NCBI RefSeq assembly: GCF_004209755.1
Contig: NZ_CP035913.1
Coordinates: forward strand, 2,914,001 to 2,978,000
DNA length: 64,000 nucleotides
From: Pseudoduganella lutea
Lineage (GTDB): Bacteria > Pseudomonadota > Gammaproteobacteria > Burkholderiales > Burkholderiaceae_D
Direction of reading: 5' to 3'
The notes under the pieces are model-generated. The model made no database searches and was not told where the DNA came from. It saw only the letters and a program-made list of their open reading frames with translations. This document shows, piece by piece, positions 687 to 58,295 of the stretch. Made by a program: the position numbers and the translations under genes. The stretch's first letter is position 1, and the number at the start of each line of letters is the position of its first letter.

Positions 687-1331
687 ATGAGGCAACTATT
701 GCTGCTATTGTTGATAGGTTGTGGTGCGCCCACGCTGGTGTTCGCGCAGGGGGCGGGTAGCGACACGCCCAAGCTGCAGGTCACCGTCAAGCGCATCATG
801 CAGGAAGCGCTGCACATGTACGAGATCGATGCCACCGGCACCGTGCAGGCGCCGCTGCCTGTCGTGTGGCGCATCCTGACAGGCTATGACCGGATGGAAG
901 AGTTCGTGCCCGATCTCGTGTCGTGCCGCGTGCTTTCGCGCAATGGCAACGAGGTAATCATCGAGCAGTTCGGCAATGCGCGCTTCCTGTTCATGTCGCG
1001 CTCGATCCACCTGATCGTGCGCGCCACCGAGCAGCCCATGTCGTCCATCGACATCGCGCTCATTTCCGGCGACATGAAGCACTATGAATCGCGCTGGGAG
1101 CTGGTACCTGTCCCGGAAACGGGCGGCACGAAAGTGCTGTACAAGGGGCGCATGATGCCCAACTTCTACGTGCCGGGCATCCTCGGCACGAACATCATCC
1201 GCGGCGATATCGAACGCATGATGGGCGCCGTGCTGGCGCGGCTCGACAAGGGTATCGCACCGCGCGCCCTGCCCTCGGCCGGCACGGACATTGCCCGTAC
1301 CGGTGCGGCGGCCCTGGCGGCGCCGCGCTGA
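687..1331 (+). CDS. Exported SRPBCC (START-like / polyketide cyclase) domain protein
   Basis: A 214-residue protein. The ATG at 687 is preferred to the upstream in-frame start at 639 because it begins a clear signal peptide (MRQLLLLLLIGCG..VFA, cleavage near residue 20). The mature part reads like a SRPBCC/START fold: a beta-strand start (VQAPLPVVWRILTGYDRMEE), a central strand region and a long C-terminal helix near residues 165-190. These folds bind hydrophobic ligands in a central cavity; no catalytic residues can be named. The last ~25 residues are Ala/Arg-rich and probably disordered. The substrate is unknown. Neighbouring genes give no functional link. Confidence 0.65.
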   Translation: MRQLLLLLLIGCGAPTLVFAQGAGSDTPKLQVTVKRIMQEALHMYEIDATGTVQAPLPVVWRILTGYDRMEEFVPDLVSCRVLSRNGNEVIIEQFGNARFLFMSRSIHLIVRATEQPMSSIDIALISGDMKHYESRWELVPVPETGGTKVLYKGRMMPNFYVPGILGTNIIRGDIERMMGAVLARLDKGIAPRALPSAGTDIARTGAAALAAPR

Positions 1332-1350
1332 CTGCGCTGAACCTGGCCGT

Positions 1351-1803
1351 TCAGGCCGGGTACTGGTCGCGCGTGCGCACTTCCGCGAAATTCTCCAGGC
1401 TGCCGATCCGGATCACCACCGGGTTCAGGCTGGCTTGTGCATGCATCGGCCGCCAGGCGAATTTCCATTCCTGCTCTGCCGCATCCTGGGCGGCCATCGT
1501 GAAGGCCGAGCCCAGCCGGGCGCGGCTGCCATACTCGACAGCGCCGTCGATACCGGCCCAGTTCGGCAGCGTGCGCTGCACGGCACGGTGCACGCGTTCG
1601 CCAAATTCCTCGGTGTTATGGATGACGAGGCAGGCATCGGCGCCGAAATGGTCGAACAGGTCGCGGCTCCACGCCTGCGAGAACGACAGCGTGAGGAATC
1701 CCGCATCGGGCCGCAGCACGAAATGACCCTGGCTGAGTGCCTGGTCGAGTTCGCTGCGGGGACCATAGCGGTGCAGGGTCGGGGGGCGTTGATAGTCGTG
1801 CAT
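1351..1803 (-). CDS. Conserved hypothetical protein, cytoplasmic, 150 aa
   Basis: I do not recognise the family. The ATG at 1803 (MHDYQRPPTLHRYGP) starts a globular, mixed alpha/beta sequence with no signal peptide or membrane segment; upstream in-frame codons read as Cys/Arg-rich noise and were excluded. Visible segments include HFVLRPDAGFLTLSFSQAW, a likely beta-hairpin, and EEWKFAWRPMHAQASLNP. It starts 10 bp after the DUF2721 gene stop on the same strand, so the two are probably co-transcribed. Codon use matches the neighbours. Confidence 0.6.
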   Translation of the reverse strand: MHDYQRPPTLHRYGPRSELDQALSQGHFVLRPDAGFLTLSFSQAWSRDLFDHFGADACLVIHNTEEFGERVHRAVQRTLPNWAGIDGAVEYGSRARLGSAFTMAAQDAAEQEWKFAWRPMHAQASLNPVVIRIGSLENFAEVRTRDQYPA

Positions 1804-1813
1804 GGATTCGTGT

Positions 1814-2290
1814 CTAGATTTGTTTCGTGACTGGCTCGTTGGTTCTGGGTGCGCGGCGCACGTGGCGCATGGCACGCATGGCGGACGAGGCAATGAAGAT
1901 CTCGCGCAGCAGCGCGCCAAAGCTGGCGATCAGGCTGCCCACCGCCGCCGCGAACAGGCCGGCAATGTACTTGTCGAGCGTGACGTCGGTGGTATCGCCC
2001 ACGAACAGCAGGGCGATCACGATGCCGACGAACAGGCCGCACAGCGTGGACAGCGTGATCGCCATGTTGATGTAGTGCGAGCGGCGGTACAGCACGTCCA
2101 GCTCGGTGATGTAATGGTCGTTGTAGGCGATGTCGAGGCGATCCTCGAGCACGCGCGAGCGGTCGATGATGCGGGCCAGGCGGTTGATCAGCACCATCAG
2201 GGCGGTGCACACGCCGTTCAGCAGGAATACCGGTGCGATCGCCAATTGAATGATGTGGCCGATGTCGCCCAGCTGGATGTTCATTGCCAT
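1814..2290 (-). CDS. DUF2721 family integral membrane protein
   Basis: A 158-residue protein with three hydrophobic segments (about residues 10-32, 78-100 and 110-135). It has the family-typical beginning IQLAIAPVFLLNGVCTALM followed by NRLARIIDRSR, which is the signature stretch of DUF2721 proteins. The function of the family is unknown. Two in-frame ATGs (2290 and 2284) fit equally well; neither has a clear ribosome binding site. The gene is probably transcribed with the 150-aa protein that follows 10 bp downstream. Confidence 0.75.
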   Translation of the reverse strand: MAMNIQLGDIGHIIQLAIAPVFLLNGVCTALMVLINRLARIIDRSRVLEDRLDIAYNDHYITELDVLYRRSHYINMAITLSTLCGLFVGIVIALLFVGDTTDVTLDKYIAGLFAAAVGSLIASFGALLREIFIASSAMRAMRHVRRAPRTNEPVTKQI

Positions 2291-2423
2291 ATTATGTTGT
2301 GTACGCTGCGGGACGACGCGCCCGCTCCAGGCGCAAGTGTAGCAGGCCGCCGCATGGCGGCGGTGCCGGCCAACCCGCCACGGCAAAAAAACCCGGGAGC
2401 ATGCCGGGAAAATGGCCGGCCGC

Positions 2424-3377
2424 CTAGAACCGTCCGAAGCGGCGGAATGCCTCGGTGGCCGCCACCAGCTCGCGGCTGATGCCCAGCTCCATGGCCCCAT
2501 GGCCGGCATCCGGCACCATCTTCACCACCGAGCCTGGCCACTGCTTGTGCAGCCGCCAGGCGGTAAACGGCGGGCAGATCACGTCGTAGCGCCCCTGCAC
2601 GATCACGGCCGGCAGGTGCGCGATGCGCGATACATTCTTCAGCAACTGCTCCTCCTCGAAGAAGCCCAGGTTGGCCATGTAGTGCGCTTCCAGCCGGCCC
2701 AGGCCAAGATCCAGCGTGTCGCACGGCGGCTCTTCCGGCTGCGGCATCAGGAACACGCGCCGCCCTTCGAACCGGCTCCACCCCCGCACGGCGGGCCAGT
2801 ATACGTCCGGGTCCGGGTCCATGATGCGCCGGTAATAGGCCTGCAGCAGGTCGCCCCGCTCCGGCTCCGGAATCGCCGCGGCGAATTCCTCGTGGATCTC
2901 CGGGTGGAACCACTGGGCGCCGTCGATGAACCAGTCGATCTCCAGCGTCGTGCACAGGAAGACCCCGCGCAGCACGAAGCCGAGGCAGCGCTCGGGATGG
3001 GCTTCGCCATACGCCAGCGCCAGCGTCGAGCCCCACGAGCCGCCAAACACCAGCCACTGGTCGATGCCCATCAGCTGGCGCAGCTGCTCCATGTCCGACA
3101 CCAGCAGCCCGGTCGTGTTGTCGCGCGTTTCGCCCAGCGGCGTCGACTGGCCGGCACCGCGCTGGTCGAACAGGATCACGCGGTAGTGGCGCGGATCGAA
3201 GAAGCGCCGGTGCTGCGGCGACAAGCCGGCTCCCGGCCCGCCATGCAGGAAGATCACGGGAATGCCCTGCGGGTTGCCCACCTCTTCCCAGTAGATCGTG
3301 TGCAGCGCGTCGACCTGCAGCATGCCGGTGCGCAGCGGGGTAATGGGCGGAAACAGGTAGGGTGATGGATCGGGCAT
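2424..3377 (-). CDS. pip: Proline iminopeptidase (alpha/beta hydrolase, peptidase S33)
   Basis: A 317-residue cytoplasmic enzyme that removes N-terminal proline from peptides. Visible hallmarks are the oxyanion-hole motif HGGPGAG (about 45-51), the DQRGAGQS loop (71-78), the nucleophile elbow GGSWGST with Ser114, the acid region GRYDVICPP and the catalytic His in DAGHGAME near the C-terminus. The length matches bacterial Pip (about 310-320). The ATG at 3377 is chosen because homologous sequence starts at PDPSPYLFPPITPLRTGML; frames upstream are Arg/Ala noise. The gene sits 23 bp downstream of the deaminase-like gene on the same strand and may share its transcript. Confidence 0.93.
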   Translation of the reverse strand: MPDPSPYLFPPITPLRTGMLQVDALHTIYWEEVGNPQGIPVIFLHGGPGAGLSPQHRRFFDPRHYRVILFDQRGAGQSTPLGETRDNTTGLLVSDMEQLRQLMGIDQWLVFGGSWGSTLALAYGEAHPERCLGFVLRGVFLCTTLEIDWFIDGAQWFHPEIHEEFAAAIPEPERGDLLQAYYRRIMDPDPDVYWPAVRGWSRFEGRRVFLMPQPEEPPCDTLDLGLGRLEAHYMANLGFFEEEQLLKNVSRIAHLPAVIVQGRYDVICPPFTAWRLHKQWPGSVVKMVPDAGHGAMELGISRELVAATEAFRRFGRF

Positions 3378-56103: not shown

Positions 56104-56676
56104 ATGCAAGAATTTCATCATCAACGGGCCCGTGCGCTGCTGGACAACGCCGAGGAAATCTTTACCGCCCAGCAGGTGTCCGACGCCGTGCGCCAGGTGG
56201 CCGGCGAGCTGAACACGCGCTTCAACGCACTCGAGGAATTCCCGCTCGTGCTTGGCGTGATGGGCGGCGCCGTCGTCTTCACCGGCAACCTGCTGCCGCA
56301 GCTGACGTTCCCCCTCGAATTCGACTATATCCACGTGAGCCGCTATGGCGACGAAGACCGCGGCGGCGAAGTCGTCTGGAAGGTGGTGCCCCGCTCGAAT
56401 GTCGAAGGCCGCACCGTGATCGTCGTCGACGACATCCTCGACGAAGGCGAAACGCTGGCCCACGTGAAGCAGCGCCTGCTCGACATGGGCGCCAAGGAAG
56501 TTGTCATTGTTGTCTTCGCGGACAAGGCGATCGGCAAGACCAAGCCGGTGAAGCCGGATCTGGTGGGTCTCGTCATTCCGAACCGCTTCGTCGTCGGTTA
56601 TGGCATGGATGCCTACAATTACTGGCGCAACCTGCCCGGCCTGTGGGCAATCAACAACACCGATCTGTCAAGCTGA
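56104..56676 (+). CDS. hpt: Hypoxanthine-guanine phosphoribosyltransferase
   Basis: A 190-residue purine salvage enzyme. The PRPP-binding motif is [14 protein letters not shown] (about 110-123), and the flexible-loop and base-binding parts lie in [20 protein letters not shown] and [17 protein letters not shown]. Hypoxanthine or guanine with PRPP gives IMP or GMP. The ATG at 56104 is preferred over an upstream in-frame start. Its last 9 bp overlap the 3' end of the convergent ClpP-like gene. Confidence 0.93.
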
Positions 56677-57270
56677 GCGGTCCGCATTTCCTCGTTCCCA
56701 TAGCACCTCGTCCACCAGGCCGTACTCGACGGCCTGCGTGGCGGACATGAAGTTGTCGCGATCCGAATCGCGCGCGACCCGCGCGATATCCTGTCCCGTG
56801 CGTTCGGCAAAGATGTGGTTCAGCCGTTCGCGCAGGTGCAGCACCTCCCTTGCCTGAATTTCCACATCCGCCGCCGTGCCCTGCGACCCGCCGCTGGGCT
56901 GGTGGATCATGATGCGCGCATTGGGCAGCGCAAAGCGCTTGCCTTTCTCTCCCGCCGCCAGCAGGAACGCGCCCATGCTGGCCGCGAAGCCCGTGCAGAT
57001 GGTCGCCACCGCCGGCCGGATGAACTGCATCGTGTCGTAAATCGCCAGGCCCGCGTAGACGGACCCGCCGGGCGAGTTGATGTAGAGTGAAATATCCTTG
57101 CCCGGGTCTTCCGATTCCAGGAACAGCAATTGCGCGACGACGAGATTGGCCGATTCGTCCGTCACGGGGCCGACGATGAAAACGATGCGTTCACGCAGCA
57201 GGCGCGAGTAAATGTCGTAGGCACGCTCGACGCGGCCGGTGTTTTCGATGACGGTGGGGATCATGTGCAT
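56668..57270 (-). CDS. clpP: ATP-dependent Clp protease proteolytic subunit, stand-alone paralogue
   Basis: A 200-residue ClpP with the complete catalytic triad Ser98 (AASMGAF), His123 (MIHQPSGG) and Asp172. The N-terminus is short, and the usual tig and clpX neighbours are missing, so this is probably a second ClpP and not the housekeeping one. The start at 57270 ([11 protein letters not shown]) has AGGAG 5 nt upstream. It is divergent from an ECF sigma gene and has a matching ECF-type promoter in the shared gap, so it may be induced by that sigma factor. Confidence 0.93.
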
Positions 57271-57313
57271 GGCGGCTCCTTTGTATGACTGAATTGGCTG
57301 TCCGTGCCGGCTT

Positions 57314-57340
57314 GACGCTGCACGCCCTGGCGGCGTGACG
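57314..57340 (-). promoter_or_regulatory. ECF-type promoter facing the ClpP paralogue (CGTCACG-N16-CGTC)
   Basis: On the minus strand CGTCACG (57340-57334), a 16-bp spacer and CGTC (57317-57314) have the same architecture as the promoter on the other strand in front of the sigma gene. It lies 44-70 bp upstream of the clpP start. The -35 element differs from the recalled ECF41 TGTCACA at two positions. Confidence 0.55.
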
Positions 57341-57360
57341 GATTTATTTTTCACCAGGGT

Positions 57361-57387
57361 TGTCACGTTTCGCCGGGTTCGCGCGTC
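57361..57387 (+). promoter_or_regulatory. ECF-type promoter of the sigma factor gene (TGTCACG-N16-CGTC)
   Basis: TGTCACG (57361-57367), a 16-bp spacer and CGTC (57384-57387) match, but for one base, the TGTCACA/CGTC promoter I recall for the ECF41 sigma group. It is 22 bp upstream of the start codon of an ECF41-like sigma gene, the expected place for autoregulation. Confidence 0.65.
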
Positions 57388-57408
57388 AACGGCGCAAAGG
57401 AGGATGAG

Positions 57409-58227
57409 ATGAACGATTCCATTGCCGTATTCGAGGCGTCGCGCCGGCGCCTGCTGTCGATCGCCTACCGGATGCTGGGCAGCCTGGCCGAGGCGGAGGA
57501 CGTGGTGCAGGACACGTGGCTGCGCTGGCATGCCGCCGGGGCGGCCGACCTGCAAGCACCGGTCGCCTGGCTGACAACGGTGGCGACGCGGCTGGCGATC
57601 GACCGCCTGCGCCGCAGCAAGCGTGAAACGGCATTGCCGGACCCCTGGCTGGAAGAAGGGCTGCCTTCAGCGGCGGACGATGTCGAACGGCTGTGCGACC
57701 TGTCGTATGGCGTGTTGCTGATGCTGCAGCGCCTTTCGCCCGACGAGCGCGCCGCGTTGCTGCTCCACGAGGTGTTCGACGTGCCGCATCAGGAAGTCGG
57801 CCGCATCCTCGGGCTCAAGACGGAACATTCGCGCCAGCTCGTGCGCCGCGCAAGGGCCCGCGTGCAGGCGGGACCGGTCCGGCGCGGCGCCAGCGCCGAC
57901 AGCGCCCACCTGGCGCATGCGTTCGTCGATGCGATCCGGCGCCATGACGAAGAGGCGGTGGTGCGGCTGGTGCGCGGCGTGGACATCGTCGGCCTTGCCG
58001 ATCACGTGGCGCCGCGCGCATTGACGGCCCGCGGCACGACGGCACGGCTGCAATGCGTCAATGGCGGCTGGGGAGTGGCGGTGCTGCGCTACGGGCGCAT
58101 CGATGTGCTGCTGAGCATCGAGGATGGCGGGAAACTGTATGCGGTGCGGCCGCAGGTGGTGCGGCAATGCGGGCTGGACGTACCGGCAACGACACCCTTG
58201 ATCGGGGCGGCAATGTCTCCCACCTAA
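57409..58227 (+). CDS. ECF sigma factor, SigJ/ECF41-like with divergent C-terminal domain
   Basis: A 272-residue sigma factor. Region 2 (about 8-75: [30 protein letters not shown], quoted by region, and [12 protein letters not shown]) is followed by region 4 (about 105-155: [23 protein letters not shown]). A C-terminal extension (about 160-272) has the SnoaL-like beginning [21 protein letters not shown], but it is shorter than usual and lacks the DGGG and NPDK motifs described for ECF41 proteins. There is no anti-sigma gene nearby. AGGAGG precedes the ATG. Confidence 0.88.
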
Positions 58228-58295
58228 GGCCAATGGGCACCGGGGGTTGTCTGGACTACCATTTTCCGCACAATTAACCCTTCGGAGCGCCTCAC

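Follow-up and report, generated by a model that had tools for sequence, protein, structure and literature searches.

A divergently transcribed pair of genes in Pseudoduganella lutea, one for an ECF41-like sigma factor and one for a second ClpP, probably forms a two-gene circuit in which the sigma factor drives its own gene and that of a dedicated ClpP; removal of the sigma factor would close the loop. More tentatively, as a reading with somewhat less than an even chance of being right, we propose that in many Massilia-, Duganella- and Pseudoduganella-type bacteria a sigma factor bearing a genome-encoded copy of the host's tmRNA tag, including the part bound by SspB, turns on both its own gene and that of a spare ClpP and reads the ribosome-rescue load; the window, by which we mean the whole stretch of 64,000 nucleotides that was analysed, would hold an untagged relative with a SnoaL-like input. 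The family at large holds more of interest than does its member in the window.

The divergent gene pair and its promoters

The features of the pair are listed below, with coordinates in the window.

56668..57270, minus strand: clpP paralogue, 200 aa, complete and stand-alone (Pfam CLP_protease, E 1.2e-84; NCBIfam TIGR00493 above cut-off)
57276..57282, minus strand: clpP ribosome-binding site, AAAGGAG (from the sequence)
57340-57314, minus strand: predicted ECF41-type promoter of clpP, CGTCACG-N16-CGTC, CGTCACGCCGCCAGGGCGTGCAGCGTC (kept in 23 of 24 genus genomes from the protein search)
57341..57360, no strand: A/T-rich stretch separating the -35 boxes (from the sequence and the 55-locus comparison)
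57361..57387, plus strand: predicted ECF41-type promoter of the sigma gene, TGTCACG-N16-CGTC, TGTCACGTTTCGCCGGGTTCGCGCGTC (kept in 24 of 24 genus genomes from the protein search)
57396..57403, plus strand: sigma-gene ribosome-binding site, AAAGGAGG, including AAAGGAG (from the sequence)
57409..58227, plus strand: ECF sigma factor, ECF41-like, 272 aa, without WLPEP, DGGG or NPDK (Pfam regions 2 and 4)
57889..58158, plus strand: probable shortened SnoaL-like tail, about residues 161-250 (AlphaFold model, Foldseek)

The 138-bp gap is bounded by the clpP start codon (57270-57268, minus strand) and the sigma start codon (57409, plus strand); an HGPRT gene lies beyond clpP and a gene for an isochorismatase-type hydrolase follows the sigma gene. 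Re-reading the sequence confirmed the two motifs described in an earlier note on this DNA, in position and strand and with a 16-bp spacer each. Among 20,000 dinucleotide shuffles of the gap, 60 had the motif on either strand and none had it on both, so the divergent pair is not a product of chance. Lone motifs were dropped as evidence, their frequency being that of the background: with at most one mismatch there were three matches in the window against 2.14 expected, and 156 in the whole genome against 189 for a reversed control. Exact TGTCACG sites were set aside as well, since of 18 matches in five close genomes six lay in the module and the other 12 equalled the 12 of the reversed control.

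Both window promoters fit the experimentally defined ECF41 consensus (TGTCACA, 16 ± 1 bp, CGTC), as given in the 2012 survey of this group (PMC3426412), and depart from it in the seventh base, which is G in both, and on the clpP side also in the first, which is C. The stretch between the -35 boxes has an A+T content of 59% over 55 loci, compared with 24% in the sigma-side spacer, and possibly acts as a shared upstream element.

Conservation of the module

A protein search of 74 genomes of the genus found a second strong ClpP match in 26 and a second ClpP of the module kind (72-100% identity) in 24, all 24 with a divergent sigma gene. The earlier note had proposed beforehand that this gap be aligned in relatives, expecting the -35 and -10 blocks to be conserved and the spacer not, and this is what the alignment gave: the blocks are kept in 24/24 genomes on the sigma side and in 23/24 on the clpP side, and the spacer is mostly variable. 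It had also held that loss of either motif beside a retained gene pair would speak against its reading; such losses are marginal, amounting to one of the 24 genus genomes (G074, with CATCACG as its clpP-facing -35) and to three of 24 loci in a second family that lack a sigma-facing match. The two proteins were looked for together in 36 genus genomes: 12 carry the pair, and the remaining 24 have neither the module sigma factor nor a module-kind second ClpP. These 24 include G016, which has another ClpP (L182), 55% identical to that of the window; the 4 kb of DNA taken around it hold no sigma gene. A 383-aa frame in G078 (L183) has a ClpP part 67-68% identical to the window's, and here, too, the surrounding 4 kb are free of a sigma gene.

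Searched blind for the divided motif alone, 392 genomes of the family gave matches in 50, against seven for a reversed control, and 48 of the 50 matches sit between a divergent sigma gene and clpP; the match at L193 has neither gene nearby. At L220 (genome G152, positions 2004-2081), divergent ECF41-type promoters are followed on one side by a carboxymuconolactone decarboxylase gene and then a canonical ECF41 gene, and on the other by a second decarboxylase-family frame. This layout is a textbook ECF41 target, in which the promoter arrangement of the module comes with the usual ECF41 cargo.

The comparison within this first family comprised 55 loci, of which 31 lie outside the genus and have motif counts that are true by construction, because they were found through the motif. 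Over the 55 loci the sigma-side -35 core and -10 box are invariant, most spacer columns are variable, and the distance between the heptamers is 19-23 bp (19-20 bp in the window's clade). The seventh promoter base is G in 5/5 loci of the window's clade and A in 41/44 loci of the commonest type. The identical 16-bp spacing of the two promoters, to which the earlier note had drawn attention, does not hold generally, the clpP-side spacer being 17 bp in 34 of the 44 loci of the commonest type. The ECF motif was absent from 23 other clpP loci scanned. The 20 housekeeping clpP loci examined (19 distinct) lack it, and in these 20 a clpX-like motif lies downstream of clpP.

A restriction of the module to one family was overturned by the finding of the sigma gene and clpP pair in a second one, whose named homologues are Paraburkholderia and Pararobbsia. 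A homologous sigma protein had a match at E 1e-40 in 71 of 150 genomes, and DNA was retrieved for the 30 best places: clpP is divergent from the sigma gene in the best 24, and the six weaker places are without clpP. The clpP-facing motif is present in 24/24 of these loci and both motifs in 21/24. Every spacer found is 16 bp, and where both motifs are present (21 loci) the -35 boxes are separated by 19 to 94 bp, in 10 of these loci by more than 30 bp; some of the wide-gap sites could be due to chance. An order-level motif search of 250 genomes gave matches in G000 and G115, plus one in G564 (L237) that lies inside long open frames without sigma gene or clpP. It missed the pairs of the second family because their promoter distance is often outside the pattern, the search having been too strict and the sample too thin.

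The sigma factor and its carboxy-terminal tail

The best PDB sequence match of the window sigma factor is SigJ of M. tuberculosis (5xe7, E 5.4e-33), itself an ECF41 factor. In the AlphaFold model (mean pLDDT 81, pTM 0.51), regions 2 and 4 are followed by two helices and then mostly by strands, and the best Foldseek matches are SigG1 (7qh5) and SigJ (5xe7), both SnoaL-bearing, with E values of 4e-10 to 6e-9 over about 300 columns. However, the TM-scores are only 0.27-0.31, with an rmsd near 12 Å, so the domains were not superposed as a whole; most VIA-align rows span residues 1-158 and one (7qh5_B) spans 98-264. Pfam gave no SnoaL match in the window tail even at E 10, but of three canonical ECF41 proteins scanned, SnoaL_2 appeared in only two, and in both it likewise stayed below the cut-off. 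The part after region 4 measures about 118 aa (about 100 aa in the ECF41 extension). The shortened SnoaL-like tail described in the earlier note is therefore probable given the modelled fold and the matches to SigG1 and SigJ, although less certain than it was put there, given the missing Pfam match and the low TM-scores.

The absence of DGGG and NPDK, also described there, was borne out by the sequence. Both motifs, as defined in an alignment made for this analysis, are absent from the 54 module sigma factors counted, whereas of 107 control ECF41-like proteins 81 have DGGG and 76 have NPDK. In the linker between regions 2 and 4 the window protein has LPDPWLEEG in place of WLPEP, a motif found in 0/5 proteins of the window's clade, 0/43 of the commonest type, 5/6 of the g51 type described below and 96/107 controls. 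No decarboxylase, oxidoreductase or epimerase gene adjoins the pair in the window, the neighbours being clpP, the HGPRT gene and the isochorismatase-type hydrolase gene; this ECF41 feature is not absolute, since about 30% of the ECF41 factors in the 2012 survey have no such neighbour (PMC3426412). As it fails several of the features of the group, we do not file the window protein as a member of ECF41, to which it appears similar at the promoter.

The window sigma factor has no C-terminal Ala-Ala and ends in MSPT. A degron at this end was considered, on account of the pattern PLIGAA.SPT common to many of the closest homologues, and dropped. The DNA of positions 58170-58260, which spans the sigma gene's 3′ end and the interval before the isochorismatase-type gene (CCCTTGATCGGGGC...CCCACCTAAG.CCAATGGGCA...TACCATTTT, with a CCCA...TGGG repeat), is conserved beyond the sigma stop codon in G067 and, partly, in G075. 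Since the conservation continues past the stop codon, this DNA is better read as a control element, probably that of the isochorismatase-type gene which follows.

Module sigma factors of the first family are of three types. Type (a) belongs to one genus (g51, Herbaspirillum by the names of its homologues) and has 291-313 aa, with WLPEP in 5/6; type (b), the window's clade, comprises five genomes, with 253-272 aa and without WLPEP; type (c), the commonest with 44 loci, mostly has 210-238 aa (range 157-298). In a profile comparison of 21 type (c) proteins with types (a) and (b) and with canonical ECF41, the alignment spans the first two tail helices and then ends. A type (c) model (mean pLDDT 64) likewise has two helices after region 4 and is of low confidence and structureless beyond residue 199; being too weak for a fold search, it was used only for this unstructured end. 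Both observations suggest that type (c) is an ECF41-like protein with its tail cut short. The sigma factor of L223 (G230), which is tagged, has only 157 aa, region 2 running into region 4 with the internal part gone, and L213 (G206) has both promoters, a long-branch sigma factor of 298 aa without a tag, and a divergent ClpP.

A quick tree of ClpP places types (a) and (b) together (SH-aLRT 96), type (c) on another branch apart from G206, and the housekeeping ClpPs on a third. The sigma tree resembles it, with tagged (c), untagged (a, b) and canonical proteins as three unrooted branches; when the second family was added, its grouping with (a) and (b) was supported by only 39. These topologies would fit one or two origins of tagged and untagged modules alike.

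A copy of the tmRNA tag in relatives

What is new here is an apparent copy of the tmRNA tag on the sigma factor of the commonest branch, which the window's own protein does not have. Type (c) proteins end, for example, in CANDASYALAA, and the E. coli tag is AANDENYALAA (PMC7142297). In 30 module genomes tested the host tag is ANDNSYALAA in 27 and ANDNSYAQAA in three, the latter all of genus g51; ARAGORN printed the tag in full for 14 of them and with a shorter start for the other 16, and direct reading of the frame covered 30/30. At the g51 tmRNA loci (L251, L252, L254), where the tag ends in YAQAA and not YALAA, the module sigma factors are without a tag copy.

The pattern AN[DE]xx[YF] followed by 4-12 residues ends 43 of the 55 module sigma factors, 40 of them finishing in AA and 31 in LAA; it is missing from 12, namely those of the window's clade (5), g51 (6) and G206 (1). 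Among 7197 distinct ORF ends (at least 80 codons, in the DNA fetched) it had exactly 49 matches, which were the 43 sigma factors and six tmRNA genes. Among the best 120 of 677 homologues of one type (c) protein, some of them from genomes already among the 55 loci, 118 were tagged and 108 of these ended in AA. The tag was found in none of the best 120 of 241 homologues of the window sigma factor, in 0/24 module sigma factors of the second family and in 0/107 control ECF41-like proteins. In its codons, Asp is GAC in 16 and GAT in 26, the last Ala uses all four codons, and the first two residues of AND almost always have GCC (Ala) and AAC (Asn); since the codons partly vary, conservation of the tag through selection on the protein seems likelier. 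The adaptor SspB, which binds the E. coli tag at its AAND..Y part, is present in 30/30 genomes tested, and the tagged end is modelled as structureless, as for a flexible tail.

The ClpP paralogue

The catalytic Ser, His and Asp are intact in 55/55 module ClpPs, the window's included. Of nine positions of the ClpX pocket (E. coli numbering), five are the same as in housekeeping ClpP in all module ClpPs, the housekeeping Phe at position 112 is replaced in 52/55, and some module types have other residues at positions 60, 90 and 189. ClpPs of the window's clade are apparently made without a propeptide, as one residue precedes the mature start, compared with 12-19 in housekeeping ClpPs.

Relation to known systems

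The window sigma factor resembles the ECF41 proteins Ecf41Bli, Ecf41Rsp and SigJ in its regions 2 and 4, in its promoter consensus and probably in a SnoaL-like tail, and differs from them in its missing WLPEP, DGGG and NPDK and in the module's predicted target, which is clpP and not a decarboxylase, oxidoreductase or epimerase gene. The latter are the ECF41 targets in the 2012 survey, the main text of which makes no mention of Clp; for part of the group that survey describes a divergent layout in which the motif often precedes both genes (PMC3426412).

The earlier note knew of no such module from the literature. It is not altogether new, as a 2022 review describes ECF115, a group whose extensions, about 70 residues long, are predicted substrates of Clp proteases from neighbouring genes (PMC8999054), and the association of ECF and Clp genes is already in print; the interpretation was largely right and not wholly new. 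ECF115, of the Casas-Pastor classification and known here only through that review, shares with the module a C-terminal extension and Clp genes nearby, a divergent clpP being present in 55 loci of the first family and 24 of the second. The window tail, at about 118 aa, differs in size, whereas the commonest, mostly tagged type would fit, and type (c) is probably ECF115 as that review outlines it.

Two systems of Streptomyces each resemble one half of the proposed circuit. AntA (ECF282) is an orphan ECF factor that ClpXP degrades via a C-terminal Ala-Ala (PMC7142297), and 40 of the 43 tagged relatives end in AA; however, AntA runs antimycin genes and not clpP, and the source notes its Ala-Ala and not a whole copy of the tmRNA tag, while the window sigma factor has neither. 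PopR and ClgR are described as activators of clpP genes that are removed by Clp itself, PopR turning on clpP3P4 when ClpP1P2 fails (PMC9765437), so that a Clp-degraded activator switches on a second clpP set when the first one fails; PopR, however, is a paralogue of the activator ClgR and not a sigma factor, and belongs to a different phylum. Each half therefore has a precedent, AntA for the degron and PopR/ClgR for the activation of clpP. To our knowledge the PopR/ClgR circuits have no divergent ECF promoters, and we know of no case of both halves in one sigma factor. A literature search among open-licence texts found no publication on the divergent sigma-clpP pair, nor any on divergent promoters on clpP, untagged SnoaL-tailed forms or the tmRNA-tag copy.

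The proposed circuit and its alternatives

The gene pair, the two predicted promoters and the tag mimic of the relatives are established by comparison of sequences, and from them we infer the use of the promoters by the module sigma factor, the partner ATPase, the degradation and the loop. The ECF41-like sigma factor would recognise the two back-to-back promoters, those of its own gene and of the dedicated clpP, so that active sigma factor would yield more sigma factor and more ClpP protease core. That an ECF41-type holoenzyme transcribes both genes is strongly supported by the comparison, and this holoenzyme likely contains the module sigma factor. The extra ClpP would add to or replace the protease core under ClpX or ClpA and, with either ATPase, would remove the sigma factor in a negative feedback. 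In type (c), ClpXP with SspB would destroy the tagged protein, which would build up if the protease is saturated by tagged rescue products or fails and fall once ClpP is restored; ending in a copy of the tmRNA tag, it would be expected to persist only under overload or failure of ClpXP. As rescue-tagged proteins and the sigma factor would compete for one protease, it would read the ribosome-rescue load. For the window's clade, the shortened SnoaL-like tail probably serves as the input, and a return arm leading from ClpP back to the sigma factor is suggested only by analogy: since the window's clade, g51, G206, the 24 loci of the second family and the best 120 homologues of the window protein are without the tag, the feedback loop cannot be claimed for the window.

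If this is true, saturation of ClpXP would lead the sigma factor to call for more protease. Both the capacity of ClpXP and the load of ribosome rescue lie at the heart of protein quality control, and a regulator of transcription that competes with tmRNA-tagged proteins for the protease would be a direct sensor of this load, readable with one reporter gene. The circuit would also provide a target, clpP, and a testable mechanism for orphan ECF sigma factors of a class about which little is understood, and a natural series that leads from an intact SnoaL-like tail through a shortened one to one that is truncated and joined to a degradation tag.

The reverse direction of control, in which ClpP activates the sigma factor by trimming off an inhibitory C-terminal extension, a mechanism that the review proposes for ECF115, seems unlikely to us, even though it would agree with the predicted degradation of extensions of about 70 residues where Clp genes lie nearby (PMC8999054). 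Most proteins of the commonest type have 210-238 aa, a size that would suit this reading. However, clpP carries a sigma-type promoter and is thus at least also a target, and the window tail is of another type. A terminal tag of the ssrA kind, moreover, normally sends the whole protein to destruction by ClpXP.

Slightly less likely still is that another ECF41 factor of the cell serves the promoters, with the divergent sigma gene as a target and not the driver. TGTCACA-N16-CGTC has 26 sites in eight genomes with tagged modules, against five for a reversed control, and these lie before eight module sigma genes, one module clpP, four canonical ECF41 genes and five carboxymuconolactone decarboxylase genes, with eight elsewhere; cross-talk with canonical ECF41 factors is therefore possible on the sequence evidence. 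The earlier note had one sigma factor controlling its own gene and ClpP; what has held up of this is that the motifs behave as promoters that tie the two genes into a module, while sole service by this sigma factor is unproven because canonical ECF41 genes in relatives carry the same consensus. Against control by another factor, the sigma gene and clpP co-occur, and the details of the promoters track the module type, as in the seventh base. Moreover, the sole other close ECF41 relative in the window's genome, among the matches listed, appears split by a frameshift: this canonical gene (WLPEPL, DGGGK, NPDKL), which lies outside the window at L281 (about 1320-2497, minus strand), is divided over two overlapping frames in a single-contig genome and is a pseudogene or a sequencing error.

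That the two motifs are instead a single operator for a dimeric regulator, an inverted GTGAC...GTCAC repeat that the earlier note had allowed for, is very improbable: the half-sites do face each other at a near-constant 19-23 bp in the 55 first-family loci, but the CGTC boxes are conserved as strongly as the GTCAC boxes and at fixed spacing, the motif occurs singly before canonical ECF41 and decarboxylase genes, and in the second family the distance from one -35 box to the other varies between 19 and 94 bp, with every spacer found at 16 bp, which argues for two independent promoters.
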